Virus record (IMG/VR): IMGVR_UViG_3300032249_000925
Coordinates: 35,363-99,362 of that record
Direction: 5' to 3' (one strand)
Source: a virus
DNA: 64,000 bases
Shown here: piece by piece, positions 8,917 to 41,848 of the stretch
Position numbering within the stretch: the stretch's first letter is position 1
How the letters are laid out: each line of letters opens with the position of its first letter
Program-made: the position numbers and the translations under genes
Notes under the pieces: model-generated
The model's input: only the letters and a program-made list of their open reading frames with translations
Told to the model about the DNA's origin: nothing
Database searches by the model: none

Positions 8917-9008
8917 AGAGAGTTGGCTGAGCGGCCGAAGGCAGCGGTTTGCTAAACCGTCGTATGCAGCGATGTGTACCGTGGGTTCGAATCCCACACT
9001 CTCTGCCA
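8917..9008 (+). tRNA. tRNA-Ser (GCU anticodon)
   Basis: Acceptor stem AGAGAGT (8917-8923) pairs with ACTCTCT (8998-9004), then G73 and an encoded CCA (9006-9008). The anticodon loop TTTGCTAAA gives GCT, the long variable arm is class II, and the T arm has GGTTCGAATCC. It would read AGC/AGU serine codons. Confidence 0.95.
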
Positions 9009-13503: not shown

Positions 13504-13719
13504 ATGCAAAAACCAAACCGCTTTGATTTTGAGCAACAAATGATGGATTGCTGGGGTGTAGTAGATGACATTAAAACCATCTACTATCTCCAAGACTTGC
13601 GAGATAGTACAGAAGACGAAATGCAGAATTTACTGCTAGGTTTGTTTACAATGTATCAGGTCAAGTTTGAAATTTTGCAAAAAATGTTTGAGGACTTGGT
13701 TCACAGCAAACAGTTGTAA
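13504..13719 (+). CDS. Conserved small phage protein, 71 aa
   Basis: FDFEQQMMDCWGVVDDIKTIYY and DEMQNLLLGLFTMYQVKFE are motifs I associate with a widespread small phage protein of unknown role. All-helical. It lies directly upstream of the tmRNA and may share its transcript. Confidence 0.75.
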   Translation: MQKPNRFDFEQQMMDCWGVVDDIKTIYYLQDLRDSTEDEMQNLLLGLFTMYQVKFEILQKMFEDLVHSKQL

Positions 13720-13726
13720 ACGGGTA

Positions 13727-13790
13727 GCTACTTGGCAATACTGTCAAGTAGCACCATACCAAAGCCTAGTTTATCTGGGCTTTGGTATGG
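13727..13790 (+). other. Two tandem perfect hairpins before the tmRNA
   Basis: GCTACTTG (13727-13734) pairs with CAAGTAGC (13745-13752); immediately after, a 13-bp perfect stem pairs 13754-13766 with 13778-13790. No T tract follows the second, so they are not ordinary terminators. They may form the 5' part of the tmRNA precursor, a processing site, or protect the RNA end. Confidence 0.6.
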
Positions 13791-14058
13791 TTGTATGAAA
13801 CAAGCCGAAAGGCGCGCTGGACGTGGGTTCGACTCCCACCTGGTCCACCAAAAGCACATATAGTTGTCCTAGATGAAAGAAACCTCTGAGGGCTCTAGCG
13901 GGGATTATTGTGTGCTTCTGATGGGCCAGTCATGGTTTCGACAGTGTGATAAGTATGCAAGTGGACAACTCGGTAGGCGATCTCCGCAAAAGAAGCAAAC
14001 TATATAAATGCCAACGATGAGGTATTTGCTCTAGCCGCTTAAGCTAGTGCCGAGGTAT
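13791..14058 (+). ncRNA. ssrA: Circularly permuted two-piece tmRNA
   Basis: The 3' acceptor half comes first: T arm GTGGG-TTCGACT-CCCAC (13823-13839), acceptor strand CTGGTCC (13840-13846), then ACCA ending at 13850. A 72-base intervening segment follows, then the 5' half starts with GGGCCAG (13923-13929) and the tRNA-like GGTTTCGACA. The two acceptor strands pair over 7 bp, with G3-U70, the alanine identity element. The resume codon GCA at 13995 opens the tag ANYINANDEVFALAA, stop TAA at 14040. Permuted tmRNAs are known in alpha- and some betaproteobacteria and in cyanobacteria. The exact 5' end of the acceptor piece and the 3' end of the coding piece are not determined. Confidence 0.93.
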
Positions 14059-14089
14059 GCCCCCGCCTTGTAACCAAGGGGGGCTTTTT
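14059..14089 (+). terminator. Intrinsic terminator of the tmRNA
   Basis: GCCCCC (14059-14064) with the G run at 14078-14084, an inner CCTTG/CAAGG stem, and five Ts. It separates the tmRNA from clpP. Confidence 0.85.
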
Positions 14090-14103
14090 ATCGGATAAAT
14101 CTT

Positions 14104-14736
14104 ATGGCTAACAAAAAACTTGATAGTGATGATTTTATGCTGGACACAGGTCTTAGCCGAGGATTTCGTAAATCTGGTTCTGCTATCTACGAGTTCTACC
14201 TAAGTGGAACTATTACAGGACCTGAAGACTATATTGAGTGGTTTAACACTATTCGTAGTGCAGGACCACAAGACGAAGTAAAAATTTATATTAACAGCAG
14301 CGGCGGCGATTTAAATTGTGCACTACAATTTATGCGTGTACTTAGTGAAACACAGGCCACTGTTATTTGTAGTGTTGAAGGCAGTTGCATGAGTGCTGCT
14401 ACAATGATCTTTTTATGTGCTGATGTATTTGAGGTTACTCCACACAGTTTATTTATGTTTCATAACTACAGCGGCGGCATTTTTGGCAAAGGCGGCGAGA
14501 TCTATGATCAAGCTGTTTTTGAACGTGAGTGGTCTAAGCAGTTTTTACAGCATATTTACAAAAATTTCTTAACCAGCAAAGAAATTGATAGTTTACTAGA
14601 AAACAAAGACTTGTGGCTACACAGCGAAGAAGTAAGTAATCGTGTAGAAAAATTGTGTGAAGCTAGAACTAAGGAACAAGAAGATGCTCGTAACGCCCTG
14701 TCAGGGGATTTGCAAGATGAATCCAACAACGAATAA
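14104..14736 (+). CDS. clpP: ClpP-like serine protease
   Basis: The 210-residue protein has the ClpP fold signatures: YINSSGGDLNCAL, the nucleophile Ser97 in GSCMSAAT, His120 in MFHNYSGG and Asp169 in NKDLWLHSEE, giving a complete Ser-His-Asp triad. ClpP forms a barrel fed by ClpX or ClpA; no ATPase is encoded nearby, so a host unfoldase would be needed. Phage ClpP-like proteins can be prohead proteases, but no capsid genes are adjacent. The position 15 bases after the tmRNA terminator suggests a link to degradation of tagged peptides (inference). Confidence 0.85.
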   Translation: MANKKLDSDDFMLDTGLSRGFRKSGSAIYEFYLSGTITGPEDYIEWFNTIRSAGPQDEVKIYINSSGGDLNCALQFMRVLSETQATVICSVEGSCMSAATMIFLCADVFEVTPHSLFMFHNYSGGIFGKGGEIYDQAVFEREWSKQFLQHIYKNFLTSKEIDSLLENKDLWLHSEEVSNRVEKLCEARTKEQEDARNALSGDLQDESNNE

Positions 14737-16043: not shown

Positions 16044-16120
<77 letters not shown>

Positions 16121-16124
16121 GAAA

Positions 16125-16200
16125 CTGCCCATAGCTCAGTGGATAGAGCAACAGCCTTCTAAGCTGTTGGTCGAAGGTTCGATTCCTTCTGGGCAGGCCA
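16125..16200 (+). tRNA. tRNA-Arg (UCU anticodon)
   Basis: Acceptor CTGCCCA with TGGGCAG, anticodon loop CTTCTAA (TCT), T arm GGTTCGATTCC, encoded GCCA end. It would read AGA/AGG, codons often rare in bacterial hosts and frequent in AT-rich phage genes. Confidence 0.95.
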
Positions 16201-16206
16201 AACAAT

Positions 16207-16281
16207 TCCTTAGTAGCTCAGCGGTAGAGCAGCAGACTGTTAATCTGTTGGTCCGTGGTTCGATCCCACGCTGGGGAGCCA
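16207..16281 (+). tRNA. tRNA-Asn (GUU anticodon)
   Basis: Acceptor TCCTTAG with CTGGGGA (two G-T pairs), anticodon loop CTGTTAA (GTT), T arm GGTTCGATCCC, GCCA end. Six bases separate it from tRNA-Arg. Confidence 0.94.
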
Positions 16282-16288
16282 AATTTAT

Positions 16289-16362
16289 GCCGGTGTAGTA
16301 TAATGGCAGTGCGGCGGTCTCCAAAACCGCTAGTGGTGGTTCGATTCCATCCACCGGTGCCA
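16289..16362 (+). tRNA. tRNA-Trp (CCA anticodon)
   Basis: Acceptor GCCGGTG with CACCGGT, anticodon loop CTCCAAA, discriminator G73 as expected for Trp, encoded CCA. Last of the four-tRNA cluster. Confidence 0.92.
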
Positions 16363-34978: not shown

Positions 34979-36940
34979 ATGGTTAGCACAAGAGCACAAG
35001 TAATTACACGTCGTACATATAATCGTCCTACTAGTGACGACGGAAAACAATTTGAAACATGGGAAGAAACAGTTGCCCGTGTAATTGATCATCAAGCATG
35101 GCTATGGGAACGTGCAGTTAATCGTGAATTAAATGATCAAGAATATGCAGAACTTTATGACTTAGAACAGCTAATGTTAGATCGCAAAGTATTAATGAGC
35201 GGTCGCACGCTTTGGCTTGGCGGAACTAAAGTAGCTAAAACACGAGAAGCAAGTCAGTTTAATTGCAGCTTTACTCATGTAGAAACTGTATATGATGTAG
35301 TAGATGTGCTATGGTTATTGCTACAAGGTTGCGGTGTAGGATTTAAACCTATTGTAGGTACTCTTAATGGATTTTCAAATCCAATTAAAAATATCAAAAC
35401 AATTCGTAGTCAGCGCACTGAAAAAGGCGGCAATGAATACAATACAGAAACTTGGGATGCAACAACTAAAACTTGGACACTGCAAATTGGTGACAGTGCA
35501 GAAGCTTGGGCTAAAAGTATTGGTAAGCTATTAGCAGGCAAATATCCAGCAGAAACACTAGTTTTAGATTTTTCGCAGTTGCGTCCAGCAGGAGAAAGGT
35601 TAAAAGGTTATGGTTGGATTTCTTCAGGCGATACTGCAATTAGTGCTGCATATACTAGCATTGCCAATATTCTTAATGGTAGGGCTGACAGTCTACTTAC
35701 TAGGATGGATATTCTGGACATTGTTAATCATCTGGGCACTATTCTTAGCAGCCGCCGAAGTGCTGAAATCGCTCTTTTCGACTATGGTCAGCCTGAGTGG
35801 GAAGAGTTTGCAGTAGCTAAAAAAGACTGGTGGCTACACAACAATGAACATCGTACTCAAAGTAATAATAGCCTAGTGTTTAAAGAAAAACCACTGCGCG
35901 AAGACTTAGAAAAGATTTTTCACCTAATGCAAGAAGCAGGCGGTAGTGAGCCAGGTTTTATTAATGAAGTAGAAGCTCTTAGACGAGCACCTTGGTTTAA
36001 AGGCGCTAATCCTTGTGTAGAAATTTTACTGGGCAATAAAAGTTTTTGCAACTTAACAGAAACTGACTTAGCTAAATTTCGTGGCGACAATGCAGGACTA
36101 CACGCTGCTATTAGATTAGCTGCTAGAGCCAACTATCGTCAAACTTGTGTTGACTTACAAGATGGTATCTTACAAGAATCTTGGCATTTAAACAACTACT
36201 TTTTACGATTGTGCGGTGTAGGTTTAACAGGCATTGCAATGCGTCCAGATATGGGCAGTTACGATTACGAATACTTAAAGCGCACAGCAACAGCTGCTGC
36301 TGTAGGTATGGCACAAGAACTAGGTTTACCAGCTCCAAAAAATGTAACTTGTATTAAGCCTAGTGGTACACTAAGCAAAATTATGGATACTACTGAAGGA
36401 GTGCACAAGCCACTAGGCAAGTACATTTTTAACAATGTACAGTTTAGTAAACACGATCCAGTAGTAGACAAACTGCGTGAAGCAAACTATCATGTTATTA
36501 ATCATCCAGTAGACGATAGCGGCGTGTTAGTAACTTTTCCAGTATGTTGGGATGGTGTAGTGTTTGATAAAGTTGATAGTAAAGAAATTAACTTAGAAAG
36601 TGCTGTTACGCAATTAGAACGATATAAATTGCTACAAACTAGCTGGAATCAACAAAATACTAGTGTAACTATTAGCTATGATCCTAGTGAAATTAGTGAT
36701 ATTATTGATTGGTTACTAGATAACTGGGATTGTTATGTAGGTGTTAGTTTTATTTACAGAACTGATCCTACTAAAACAGCAAAAGATCTAGGCTACCTAT
36801 ATCTTCCACAAGAAGTAGTAGATGAACGTACTTACAGAGACTATATAGCACAACTTAAACCAGTTACGCTAGATAATGCTAATAGTTTTGATGAAATTAT
36901 AGATCAAGAGTGTGCAACCGGCGCATGTCCAATTAGGTAA
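34979..36940 (+). CDS. nrdJ: Class II (adenosylcobalamin-dependent) ribonucleotide reductase
   Basis: A single-chain RNR of 653 residues. Cys96 in FNCSF and Cys357 in SFCNL form the redox pair, Cys346 in ANPCVEI is the thiyl radical site with Glu348, and Cys645/Cys650 in CATGACPIR are the C-terminal shuttle pair. No radical-generating small subunit or activase is adjacent, and the CPIR end resembles the monomeric B12-dependent enzymes. The residue usually Gly in NPCGE is Val here. It needs host or scavenged cobalamin. AAGGA precedes the ATG. Confidence 0.9.
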   Translation: MVSTRAQVITRRTYNRPTSDDGKQFETWEETVARVIDHQAWLWERAVNRELNDQEYAELYDLEQLMLDRKVLMSGRTLWLGGTKVAKTREASQFNCSFTHVETVYDVVDVLWLLLQGCGVGFKPIVGTLNGFSNPIKNIKTIRSQRTEKGGNEYNTETWDATTKTWTLQIGDSAEAWAKSIGKLLAGKYPAETLVLDFSQLRPAGERLKGYGWISSGDTAISAAYTSIANILNGRADSLLTRMDILDIVNHLGTILSSRRSAEIALFDYGQPEWEEFAVAKKDWWLHNNEHRTQSNNSLVFKEKPLREDLEKIFHLMQEAGGSEPGFINEVEALRRAPWFKGANPCVEILLGNKSFCNLTETDLAKFRGDNAGLHAAIRLAARANYRQTCVDLQDGILQESWHLNNYFLRLCGVGLTGIAMRPDMGSYDYEYLKRTATAAAVGMAQELGLPAPKNVTCIKPSGTLSKIMDTTEGVHKPLGKYIFNNVQFSKHDPVVDKLREANYHVINHPVDDSGVLVTFPVCWDGVVFDKVDSKEINLESAVTQLERYKLLQTSWNQQNTSVTISYDPSEISDIIDWLLDNWDCYVGVSFIYRTDPTKTAKDLGYLYLPQEVVDERTYRDYIAQLKPVTLDNANSFDEIIDQECATGACPIR

Positions 36941-37895: not shown

Positions 37896-38471
37896 TTAAT
37901 GAAGAAACTTTGTATACTTATCGCTACGTGTGTTAATTACATCCTTTACATGATGACGGTTAATATCACAAGCACTACGACTACCGTAAAGTGCCACCTT
38001 AGATTTTAAACAAAGTTTTTCTACATTATCAAACCACCTATTAGGATCACACCAACTTGTTAATTTACAAGCTCTACGCTCGTGATTAACACCACCTAAT
38101 CCACCATTATAGGCAGCATCTGCAAATGCATATGCTTCACGTTTGTCTAACACATACTTATCAAAAGTTTGATAATTATCGCGCATCATTAGTGTTAATG
38201 CACGAATTTGTAGGTCTGGTCGAGTATAAACTACTTGCCACGACAATTCTGATAGCTCTTTAGGATACTTATGTTTTAGTTCTGATAGAGCATCAAACCT
38301 AATAGATCCATCTGCTTTAAAAGCCCTGGTAATCTGACCAAGTCCTGCACCTTCTTCACGATCGCTGCGCAGGCGACTTTGTGAATTCCAGCACTTACTG
38401 TGCTTAAGTGATATGCAAGACTCGTGCTCTATTAGACTAGCAAGGTAAGCTGCTTTGGGTGTGTAGGCCAA
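37896..38471 (-). CDS. Lytic transglycosylase domain, -1 frame part of the lysis fusion
   Basis: EHESCISLKHSKCWNSQ (catalytic Glu likely E17 of this frame, ES motif), EEGAGLGQITRAF, DAAYNGGLGGVNHERRAC and INRHHVKDVI match phage SLT-type transglycosylases. No ATG or GTG start exists before the active site; the only candidate is TTG 38471 without a usable binding site. The frame overlaps the upstream holin-like gene, and relatives as I recall them carry this domain fused behind a VWPTHPK linker. I therefore read it as the C-terminal half of a -1 frameshift product of about 318 residues. Confidence 0.8.
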   Translation of the reverse strand: MAYTPKAAYLASLIEHESCISLKHSKCWNSQSRLRSDREEGAGLGQITRAFKADGSIRFDALSELKHKYPKELSELSWQVVYTRPDLQIRALTLMMRDNYQTFDKYVLDKREAYAFADAAYNGGLGGVNHERRACKLTSWCDPNRWFDNVEKLCLKSKVALYGSRSACDINRHHVKDVINTRSDKYTKFLH

Positions 38472-38851
38472 ACCTTGTCTTTTTCTTGCTGTAGGGTAGG
38501 CAAGTGTTCATATGCTTGTTTAGGAATATAAGTTTCTGGTGATTGTGCGTAGACTTGTGAGCCAAAAAGACTTAACAAACCGTAGATAATAATACACAAT
38601 CCTATAAATGCTAAACCTGCGCCAGTGGCAGTTTCACGTGCTTTTTTAAGCAGTGATTCCATGTCTGCATAATCAAATAGTGCACGACGTGCAAGATGTG
38701 CAAACCACACAGCTACAATTGGCGTAGCTAATTTAGCTAAAAATGGGATAGTCATGTTACCACCATTAGGGTCGCTGATAAAAAGATACAGCATAACAAT
38801 AAGGGTGCCGCCAATCATAAAAATGTTGCGAAAACGAAAATGTTCTTTCAT
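38432..38851 (-). CDS. Holin-like membrane protein, frame-0 product of the lysis fusion
   Basis: Three hydrophobic segments (about residues 11-26, 40-55, 77-95) are followed by VYAQSPETY, which looks like an export cleavage region, and the linker EHLPTLQQEKDKVWPTHPKQ. In frame 0 translation ends 8 residues later (139 aa). The linker is the known N-terminal part of phage transglycosylases, which argues that a share of ribosomes shift -1 at 38453-38459. Frame-0 product could be a holin; the shifted product a membrane-tethered or secreted lysin. Confidence 0.78.
   Translation of the reverse strand: MKEHFRFRNIFMIGGTLIVMLYLFISDPNGGNMTIPFLAKLATPIVAVWFAHLARRALFDYADMESLLKKARETATGAGLAFIGLCIIIYGLLSLFGSQVYAQSPETYIPKQAYEHLPTLQQEKDKVWPTHPKQLTLLV
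38453..38459 (-). promoter_or_regulatory. Putative -1 ribosomal frameshift heptamer CCCAAAG
   Basis: On the minus strand the frame-0 codons are C-CCA-AAG, fitting X-XXY-YYZ exactly; after slipping they read CCC-AAA. This moves ribosomes from the membrane-domain frame into the transglycosylase frame 19 bases before the frame-0 stop. No strong stimulatory stem is obvious within 10 bases downstream; a small stem AGCAC/GTGCT lies about 50 bases on. Confidence 0.65.
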
Positions 38852-39141
38852 GGATTGTCCAAATTGGAAAGTTTGCGAATAGCCTCTATGCCAACCGCTT
38901 GTTTAAGTGCACACGTGCCGTATAGCCTAATAATTTGAATATAATGTTGAGCTATATCGTCGTATGTGGAATTTTGTGGTAGTAGTGGCAATAGTTCGCA
39001 ACCAATTAATAGTTCTGGTTCTACTACTACACGTTTTTGTGTTGCTGCAATCGCTGGTGTTTCTACAGATTTTTTAGAAAAAATTCCACATCCAGCAAGC
39101 ATTGCAAGAAGGCAAAAACTAAATAATATTTGTGTTTTCAT
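38848..39141 (-). CDS. Rz1-like outer membrane spanin lipoprotein
   Basis: A lipoprotein signal with lipobox LAGC (Cys18) begins the protein. The rest has CELLPLLPQNSTYDDIAQH and YGTCALKQAVGIEAI, the pattern of outer-membrane spanins (Rz1-like, two Cys, C-terminal helix). It overlaps the upstream i-spanin gene by 4 bases. Together they would fuse inner and outer membranes at lysis. Confidence 0.85.
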   Translation of the reverse strand: MKTQILFSFCLLAMLAGCGIFSKKSVETPAIAATQKRVVVEPELLIGCELLPLLPQNSTYDDIAQHYIQIIRLYGTCALKQAVGIEAIRKLSNLDNP

Positions 39142-39500
39142 TTTTCGTTGGCTCGCATAATTGCCTCGCCGATACTATCTAAAAATGCTTGTGATGGTAA
39201 ACATTCACCATTTTTTACAATAGTAACCTGCCGCAGTTTTAACTGTTCGCTAATACTAATTATTTGTTTGTTTAATTTTTGTTGTTTTTGTGTTGCTTGT
39301 TGTTGAGCAGCGGTTAAACTACCCTCTAACTGTGTAATTTTTTGTTGTAATTCTAGTTCATATTGTTGCTGAGCTTGTACACACTCTAAGCGTGCTTGTT
39401 CATAGCCGCGAGTATAAATTTTATTGTAGATAAAAAATCCAGCTATAGCTAAGCCTACGCACACAAATATGCTAATTATTATTTTTATATCATTAAGCAT
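39138..39500 (-). CDS. Rz-like inner membrane spanin
   Basis: One N-terminal transmembrane segment (IKIIISIFVCVGLAIAGFFI) and a long Gln-rich coiled-coil periplasmic part, as in Rz i-spanins. I place the start at ATG 39500; a GTG at 39509 is possible. Partner of the Rz1-like lipoprotein just downstream. Confidence 0.85.
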   Translation of the reverse strand: MLNDIKIIISIFVCVGLAIAGFFIYNKIYTRGYEQARLECVQAQQQYELELQQKITQLEGSLTAAQQQATQKQQKLNKQIISISEQLKLRQVTIVKNGECLPSQAFLDSIGEAIMRANEK

Positions 39501-39948
39501 TTTGTTCACTAGGATTAAAATGCGGGTATCTGTACGACTCTGGTCTAACTATGGGCATAATTTCAGTAGCCTGCAAACCATTAATAATCGATTGTGGAAA
39601 TTCTTCATACATATCCCTGGTGCCGGTTAATCTGTAAGGTTTTGAACCTTCAAAAGTTCCTAGAGATTCATACCAATCATTTTGTTTATCATAAGGCTGT
39701 ACAGGACCAGTATAATGTGTAACAATTTTACCATCAATATTAGTTTTACCAATAAAATGCAATGTTTTAAATGGAATATGTGGTAATTTCAAGGTAAACG
39801 CATTCCAGTCATATAATTCAAACACTGTAACAAGACTAAAATCTACTGGTGATGACTGTGTTGGCGGTGTTCCAATTTCTGTTGTTGGGTCATAAGGAAA
39901 TTGTGCTTCTAACTCTTCAAGTGTTGGCGCATTCGTTGTATTAACCAT
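39493..39948 (-). CDS. Hypothetical protein, 151 aa
   Basis: AAGGA precedes ATG 39948. An acidic, aromatic-rich soluble protein, likely beta. It overlaps the i-spanin gene by a few bases. In the phage late region it may be a minor structural protein; no motif proves that. Confidence 0.65.
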   Translation of the reverse strand: MVNTTNAPTLEELEAQFPYDPTTEIGTPPTQSSPVDFSLVTVFELYDWNAFTLKLPHIPFKTLHFIGKTNIDGKIVTHYTGPVQPYDKQNDWYESLGTFEGSKPYRLTGTRDMYEEFPQSIINGLQATEIMPIVRPESYRYPHFNPSEQNA

Positions 39949-40243: not shown

Positions 40244-40858
40244 TTAAAACTTACGAGTATAAGTTACTTGATAAGCAGTTTGTCCTGGCCCAATGTCGTT
40301 GTTTGCTTTATCAAAATTAAAACCAACGGTATCAACCTTAGTTAAGTCGTACGCTAGACCCATTCTAACAGTAGTGCTAGTGTCGTTCTGAGTAGGTGTA
40401 GTGCTAAATGCTTGTCTCCAGCGATACCCGACTCTAGCGCGGACATTAAAAGGAGTATGGTAAACTAGACCCACTTCTTCAGTATTGTAAGCAAATGATT
40501 GAGCACCATTTACAATTTTTACACCAAGTCCTAAACGAGCGTAACCATCAACTGGTCCAAAAATTTGTTTTTGTGCATTAAAACCTGCTTCAACACGACC
40601 TCCTACTCGATAAGAACTTGGCGTTGGTTTTCCTGAAGGTCCTTCAAAATAATCATTTTGGTTTGATGCAAGTAAAAAATCTCCTGCAAAAAGATCAGTA
40701 AATTTTTGTCTAAGCTGAAAGTTGATTTGTTGTTGATTTGGTCCACTGTTATCGTCAACTGATTGGGTTAGATAACCAACAGTTACGGAAGTTCCTGCAG
40801 CTAAAGCTGACGAACTAATAGCAGCGCAAATTGTTGTGGCGATAAAAACTTTTTTCAT
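40244..40858 (-). CDS. Outer-membrane beta-barrel protein, 204 aa
   Basis: A clear signal peptide ends SSSALA before AGTSVTVGYL. The mature part has alternating-residue strands (INFQLRQKF, YRVGGRVEAGF, GYARLGLGVKI, RARVGYRWRQAF, TVRMGLAYDL) and ends in VTYTRKF with the terminal Phe recognised by the BAM machinery. About eight strands are expected. Host-derived barrels in phages can change the cell surface or block superinfection. It sits next to a periplasmic binding protein gene. A 6-bp hairpin (40893-40907) lies just upstream. Confidence 0.8.
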   Translation of the reverse strand: MKKVFIATTICAAISSSALAAGTSVTVGYLTQSVDDNSGPNQQQINFQLRQKFTDLFAGDFLLASNQNDYFEGPSGKPTPSSYRVGGRVEAGFNAQKQIFGPVDGYARLGLGVKIVNGAQSFAYNTEEVGLVYHTPFNVRARVGYRWRQAFSTTPTQNDTSTTVRMGLAYDLTKVDTVGFNFDKANNDIGPGQTAYQVTYTRKF

Positions 40859-40906: not shown

Positions 40907-41848
40907 TTATTTTAATACCTTTTCAAATAGTTCTCTATCTGTTGCAGTACCTTTTGTATATCCAGCAGGAGTTAATTCATTTGTTAAGATTATCAACCCT
41001 GTTGCGTTGTAAATTGGTGTAGCTTGTTCACTTCTAATTGCTTTAACAAATTTTTCTTCGAACCAATCTTTAATTTCTTTTGCGGTATTTTTAGGCAATC
41101 CAATTCCCCAAGAGGAATGAAATACTAAACTTTTATCAAAATCTTTGGCTAAAGGTGTTGAAGGAAATTCTTTTACTTTTGAATCACTGAATACAGCAAT
41201 AAATTTAATTTTACCAGAATCATGCAAATTAAGTGCTGTTATTAGCGGCACAATAGTAATTTTTGTTTCTTTTTGTGCAACTGAGACTTGTGATTCTAAT
41301 GGTCCTTTATAATTAACTAAAGTTACTTTATCTTCAGACGAATCCGTTAGTTTAAGATAGTGTCTAAATGCAGCTTCTGTATTGCCGCCATTAGATGCCA
41401 CTAACGTTGGTGCGGTTGAAGATTTTATAAGATTTTTTAAATCATTTAAATTGTTCAATGGCGAATCTGCACTAACAACTGCTACCATAGGGCTAGCGGC
41501 CATGGTAAGAATTTTATCAAAATCTGATTCTTGATATTTTACAATGTCTTTATTTAAAATTGGACTTGTGGTAAAAGCATGTCTACCAATTACTTTTAAA
41601 TGATGCCCGTCATTGGGTTTATCTACAAAACTATTTAAATCAATAAGTCCGCCTGCTCCCGGTCTATTATTGAGAATAAACTTTGTTTCTGGGTTTTGTT
41701 TTTCTATAATCTTTGTTAAAGCTCTTGTAACACTATCATCCCCAGAGCCAGGTGGAAAACCTATGTAGACATTAATAGGTTTTGTAGGTTCCCAAGCAAG
41801 TGCTTGTGTGCAAACCAATGTAAGTATAAGTAATAGTTTTTTAAACAT
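40907..41848 (-). CDS. Bug/TctC-family periplasmic substrate-binding protein
   Basis: Signal peptide MFKKLLLILTLVCTQALA, then KPINVYIGFPPGSGDDSVTRAL (split across 23-44) and NNRPGAGGLI, the hallmark motifs of tripartite tricarboxylate transporter receptors (Bug family), with 313 residues as usual. These proteins capture carboxylates in the periplasm and are hugely expanded in Burkholderiales. No TctA/TctB membrane subunits are present, so it would have to work with host permeases or act as a decoy. GFPPGSGDDS differs from the common FPPGGxxD, showing divergence. Confidence 0.88.
   Translation of the reverse strand: MFKKLLLILTLVCTQALAWEPTKPINVYIGFPPGSGDDSVTRALTKIIEKQNPETKFILNNRPGAGGLIDLNSFVDKPNDGHHLKVIGRHAFTTSPILNKDIVKYQESDFDKILTMAASPMVAVVSADSPLNNLNDLKNLIKSSTAPTLVASNGGNTEAAFRHYLKLTDSSEDKVTLVNYKGPLESQVSVAQKETKITIVPLITALNLHDSGKIKFIAVFSDSKVKEFPSTPLAKDFDKSLVFHSSWGIGLPKNTAKEIKDWFEEKFVKAIRSEQATPIYNATGLIILTNELTPAGYTKGTATDRELFEKVLK

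Follow-up and report, generated by a model that had tools for sequence, protein, structure and literature searches.

A putative programmed -1 frameshift between holin-like and endolysin genes in the lysis cassette of an uncultured phage group

Organization of the lysis cassette

The window, meaning the whole 64,000-nucleotide stretch analysed (positions 35363-99362 of a 99,362-base virus record), carries spanin-like genes of the Rz and Rz1 types directly upstream of a holin-like gene, whose 3' end is overlapped by the reading frame of an endolysin, so that the locus makes up a whole lysis cassette. Its features are as follows.

39138-39509, minus strand: i-spanin (Rz-like), matching the Rz-like spanin family phrog_214 (E 1e-5)
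38848-39141, minus strand: o-spanin (Rz1-like lipoprotein), matching the Rz-like spanin family phrog_456 (E 9e-7), with an ATGA overlap with the holin start
38432-38851, minus strand: frame-0 open reading frame of 139 aa, holin-like with its three transmembrane segments, after which come the first lysin-domain helix and a short tail, QLTLLV (hydropathy and profile match)
38473-38476, minus strand: AAGG, Shine-Dalgarno-like, 13 nt 5' of the heptamer, a possible weak stimulator
38453-38459, minus strand: slippery heptamer C CCA AAG in X_XXY_YYZ phase, on which a -1 slip would take the P-site codon from CCA to CCC and the A-site codon from AAG to AAA
38432-38452, minus strand: two-frame overlap with reduced synonymous variation, down to the frame-0 stop TAA (38434-38432)
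37896-38453, minus strand: endolysin catalytic domain in the -1 frame (phrog_669), 185 codons plus stop, with the catalytic Glu in IEHESC

The 139-aa frame (38851-38432, minus strand) ends in ...KDKVWPTHPKQLTLLV, also given as ...QQEKDKVWPTHPKQLTLLV, and the overlapping -1 frame, which runs down to 37896, encodes ...TPKAAYLASLIEHESC... and reads AAYLASLIEHESCISLKHSKCWN... past the slip. The sequence-only reading of this DNA had set a heptamer, C-CCA-AAG, at the crossing point and had let the catalytic domain continue in the -1 frame. The heptamer is indeed exact and in phase at 38459-38453, where CCA and AAG are frame-0 codons inside the overlap of the two frames, and the domain that continues past the 139-aa frame for 185 codons is that of a lytic-transglycosylase-type endolysin. 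A fusion made by slippage here is predicted to be 133 + 185 = 318 aa long; the Glu-C peptide spanning its junction would be KDKVWPTHPKAAYLASLIE, with a trypsin site at the junction Lys. In the roughly 18,000 codons of those window reading frames that are 120 codons or longer, C CCA AAG occurs in phase only here, and of the 27 in-phase XXXAAAR heptamers in window reading frames only the lysis site opens onto a long -1 frame (185 codons, the others at most 29).

The enzyme half matches the PHROG 'endolysin' family phrog_669 with an E value of 1.8e-14, and its match to Pfam SLT lies below the cut-off (12.1 versus 21.3 bits). Residues E15, E17 and C19 of the enzyme domain are invariant, and a conserved catalytic-type Glu ends the first helices of the domain. 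A Foldseek search with the predicted structure of an in-frame fused homologue gave MltF, MltC and MltE as its best matches (probability 1.00, E about 2e-3, moderate TM scores), and the enzyme profile aligns weakly with MltF. The fold likeness (E about 2e-3), which is at the level of the superfamily, together with the profile match marks the enzyme half as a predicted endolysin of the lytic transglycosylase type.

The end of the 139-aa frame had also been claimed to belong to the N-terminus of the enzyme. In L226, an in-frame homologue modelled with AlphaFold, helix 110-126 lies within the confident enzyme domain at a pLDDT of 95-97, and its equivalent, YIPKQAYEHLPTLQQEKDKVW, is encoded 5' of the slip site. 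If translation of the enzyme began past the heptamer, the product would be without the first helix of its domain as well as without any export signal.

By hydropathy, the holin-like sequence has three transmembrane segments, making it a small multi-spanning protein with spanins adjacent, and an hhalign comparison matches it to the annotated holins of phages YuA, Mecenats66 and PHB04 with a probability of 97.6. Positive charge is found at its N-terminus and in the loop between the second and third transmembrane segments, which by the positive-inside rule would place the C-terminus in the periplasm. The short 139-aa product may be a working holin.

The order spanins, holin-like gene, lysin, PhoH-like ATPase is common to the window and a distant relative, L024. 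A class II (B12-dependent type) ribonucleotide reductase gene (window 34979-36940, plus strand) follows downstream of the PhoH-like gene but on the other strand, and this pair is likewise present in L024. Near the cassette, at 40907-41848 on the minus strand, lies a gene for a TctC (Bug-type) solute-binding receptor (Pfam TctC, E 1e-20), possibly a host-derived metabolic gene, and adjoining it at 40244-40858 (minus strand) is a possible outer-membrane beta-barrel protein that bears a signal peptide and scores under the cut-off for Pfam OMP_b-brl (E 5e-4). The plus strand of the window carries tRNA genes for Ser(gct) and, in a cluster, Met, Arg(tct), Asn and Trp (8917-9008 and 16044-16362), along with a permuted tmRNA of betaproteobacterial type at 13718-14133 (tag ANDEVFALAA; Rfam RF01850, 139.8 bits, and RF04321, 135.2 bits), which points to a betaproteobacterial host.

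Conservation and distribution of the slip site

In 25 loci the two frames are split in this way at one and the same residue; these are the window and 24 viral contigs whose enzymes are 57-94% identical to that of the window; all members of this clade are metagenomic contigs. Eighteen of these contigs are close relatives (L002-L019, 81-94% identity), and the six more distant two-frame contigs are L075 (68%), L076 and L077 (67%), L078 (64%), L095 (60%) and L024 (57%). Of the 25 loci, 22 have C CCA AAG as their slippery heptamer; L075 and L078 have C CCA AAA, and L024 has A AAA AAG, which is the dnaX site. Furthermore, a DNA-level scan of 2.9 million IMG/VR viral contigs for CACCCAAA followed by the enzyme motif in the -1 frame returned exactly 23 contigs with C CCA AAR, all of which had already been found. 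A search of isolated phages yielded no frameshift member and almost no match to the holin half.

The codons at the site are strongly constrained. In 18 close members CAC-CCA-AAG (His-Pro-Lys) is invariant, with 0 synonymous pair differences observed against 156.5 expected, and the neighbouring codons vary freely. In this phage CAC makes up 40% of His codons, CCA 41% and AAG 13% of Lys codons, a usage under which CAC-CCA-AAG would be expected for His-Pro-Lys in about 2% of cases. Around the site synonymous variation falls to 0.55-0.6 of expectation; it stays low for about 10 codons past the heptamer and exceeds 1 again within about 14 codons. Purifying selection acts on both halves: at a dS of about 1 the holin half has a median dN/dS of 0.071 and the enzyme half one of 0.099, a value that becomes 1.2 and 2.2 when the enzyme half is translated in the other frames.

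The frameshift members cluster as a single group (support 92/84, recovered in 93% of bootstrap trees) in a tree built from 126 enzyme domains. The adjoining lineage has separate genes, and in-frame fusions originate at several points elsewhere in the tree. The single group and its varied heptamers suggest that the site was acquired once, was kept over deep divergence and had its heptamer exchanged in one lineage. Such a history, of single acquisition, deep retention and replacement by another slippery heptamer, is what selection for slippage would predict.

The L024 locus (L024:1-6561) lies in a 100.5-kb contig whose genes are open only with TAG as an amino acid, taken here as glutamine. Its phage appears to read TAG as glutamine, because the holin-like gene is open only under such a code, and at the lysis site (A AAA AAG) both frames end in TAA.

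Holin-lysin fusions in a single frame are widespread (L126, L138, L139, L141, L147-L151, L226, L230 and others), with about 40 or slightly fewer true loci, duplicates discounted, in betaproteobacterial prophages and viral contigs. Six further candidates (L108, L119, L130, L131, L153 and L154) were rejected as fusions, being separate short lysins mislabelled by the profile. Comparison with fused homologues, which had been proposed together with the frameshift, places their join at the frameshift residue (YWPDHPKPELLAALVEQESC). None of 31 inspected in-frame fusions has a slippery heptamer at the join that could release a free holin by dnaX-like truncation.

With respect to efficiency, C_CCA_AAG came first among 64 heptamers that were assayed in E. 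coli together with stimulators, reaching 54% with the IS3 pseudoknot (PMC4066793), and a review terms it highly shift-prone (PMC5009743). No conserved hairpin emerged 3' of the site when individual sequences and the alignment were folded, the z-scores being around zero or positive and compensated pairs absent. An AAGG or AGGG motif of Shine-Dalgarno type lies 13-14 nt 5' of the heptamer in only 13 of 24 clade members, and a universal Shine-Dalgarno stimulator was therefore rejected. Because the downstream hairpin is lacking and the upstream element is so unevenly present, slippage may be of low efficiency, or may depend on an unseen element such as a pseudoknot.

Readings of the split gene

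Comparison of the 25 loci shows a two-frame architecture in which the heptamer and both frames are constrained and the enzyme has no apparent alternative start. The programmed -1 frameshift that had been put forward as putative gains strong comparative support from the number of loci, from the invariant codons and from the dN/dS values of 0.07 and 0.10. We put at roughly 90% the probability that a programmed -1 ribosomal frameshift in this cassette yields both a short protein and a holin-lysin fusion; slippage itself presumably occurs, at some rate, and the enzyme can apparently be made in this uncultured phage group only by way of it.

Most ribosomes would reach the TAA of the holin-like gene and release the 139-aa three-helix membrane protein, and a fraction would shift back by one base at C CCA AAG, reading on into the 318-aa fusion. 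The third transmembrane helix of the fusion (ending in VYA, with Q next) would act as a signal-anchor or export signal, like the separate signal sequences of relatives, and the transglycosylase domain, with its first helix encoded 5' of the slip site, would probably lie in the periplasm. It is plausible that the ratio of short product to fusion sets the timing of lysis. A more specific proposal, for which we would give slightly less than even odds, is that a single three-helix domain serves as both free holin and lysin anchor, so that the slip rate fixes their ratio and hence the lysis clock, possibly through mixed oligomers of holin and holin-lysin.

Alternatively, frameshifting may be real and the short product a mere by-product, the site serving only to throttle a fusion protein that does everything. 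The roughly 40 in-frame fusions without a slippery heptamer lend weight to this, since they imply that a phage can sometimes do without free holin and that the fusion alone may suffice. However, the nearest outgroup and many other relatives keep a separate homologous holin gene, and the annotated holins of isolates are homologous to the holin-like half; we regard this reading as less likely than not, though by no means remote.

A second alternative dispenses with frameshifting and has the enzyme translated separately from an internal start, perhaps by coupled re-initiation. The absence of a proper start in the enzyme frame had been part of the original claim, and it stands in part: from the preceding stop to the catalytic motif, this frame is devoid of ATG, GTG and TTG in 10 of the 25 loci, whereas the window does hold a TTG at 38471, which is not conserved among its relatives. 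Several of these have TTG, ATG or GTG at the corresponding place, and the start codons of the remaining loci are likewise not conserved. Yet the AAGG of the window lies only 2 nt from its TTG, too close for a ribosome-binding site, and the product would have neither an export signal nor the confidently modelled first helix encoded upstream. An internal start would moreover leave the invariant CAC-CCA-AAG codons unexplained, and it is refuted for L024, L075 and L078, in which the enzyme frame carries a stop just 5' of the heptamer and no start after it. Separately started homologues were also looked for; they exist only outside the frameshift clade and have a signal-like N-terminus of their own. 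Taken together, this makes internal initiation very improbable.

Slippage of the RNA polymerase in place of the ribosome might be entertained for L024, whose site contains six A residues, but the CCCAAAG or CCCAAAA of the other members offers no homopolymer longer than 4 bases, and the chance of a transcriptional origin is correspondingly slight, at a few per cent at most. Finally, although every sequence comes from assembled metagenomes, a spurious indel from sequencing or assembly, or a pseudogene in decay, has next to no probability and was rejected, the artefact being excluded in practice by 24 other contigs that share the frame relation and a slippery heptamer, across many samples, at a dS of about 1 and a dN/dS of 0.07-0.10.

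Comparison with known systems

In tailed phages, the known cases of programmed -1 frameshifting lie mainly in tail and head genes. The predicted lysis site resembles that of lambda gpG/gpGT, in which a -1 slip on X XXA AAG near the end of a short frame gives a minor, C-terminally extended product, but the lambda proteins are tail assembly chaperones, whereas the window locus is a lysis cassette that joins a membrane protein to an enzyme. According to a review, the lambda-type chaperone frameshift is broadly conserved among tailed phages (PMC5009743, which cites Xu et al. 2004). Expression of a lysis gene has been tied to frameshifting in phage MS2, where the frameshift occurs in the gene upstream of L (Kastelein 1982, as cited in PMC5009743 and PMC10885494); MS2 is, however, an RNA phage, in which out-of-frame ribosomes terminate and re-initiate at L, and no fusion protein is made. 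PRFect includes 'lysins' in its list of genes known to frameshift, with reference to a Lactococcus paper from 1994, and our full-text literature search found no report of a -1 frameshift that joins a holin to an endolysin. Frameshifting itself is thus known, and its holin-endolysin form in lysis genes, for which no earlier report was found, would be a new variant.

A conserved case in a lysis cassette would add a translational means of fixing the stoichiometry of holin and lysin. Standard gene callers would call the enzyme half of such a gene truncated, with a false start, or would miss it. A lysin of Gram-positive origin is said to be an endolysin spread over overlapping genes, in which it would resemble the window locus, and we know of no holin fusion in that case.

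The nearest comparisons come from the protein family itself. In phages YuA (holin gp61, endolysin gp62), PHB04 and Mecenats66, an endolysin of 42-48% identity stands beside a holin of the same profile family, but the two are separate genes with separate starts. The in-frame fusions (for example L126, L226 and L138) combine a homologous three-helix domain with the enzyme at the same join residue, but do so in a single frame with no slippery heptamer at the join, and free holin is not made in this way. One protein family would therefore present three solutions, as separate genes, as an in-frame fusion and, in the group described here, as a probable frameshift fusion.
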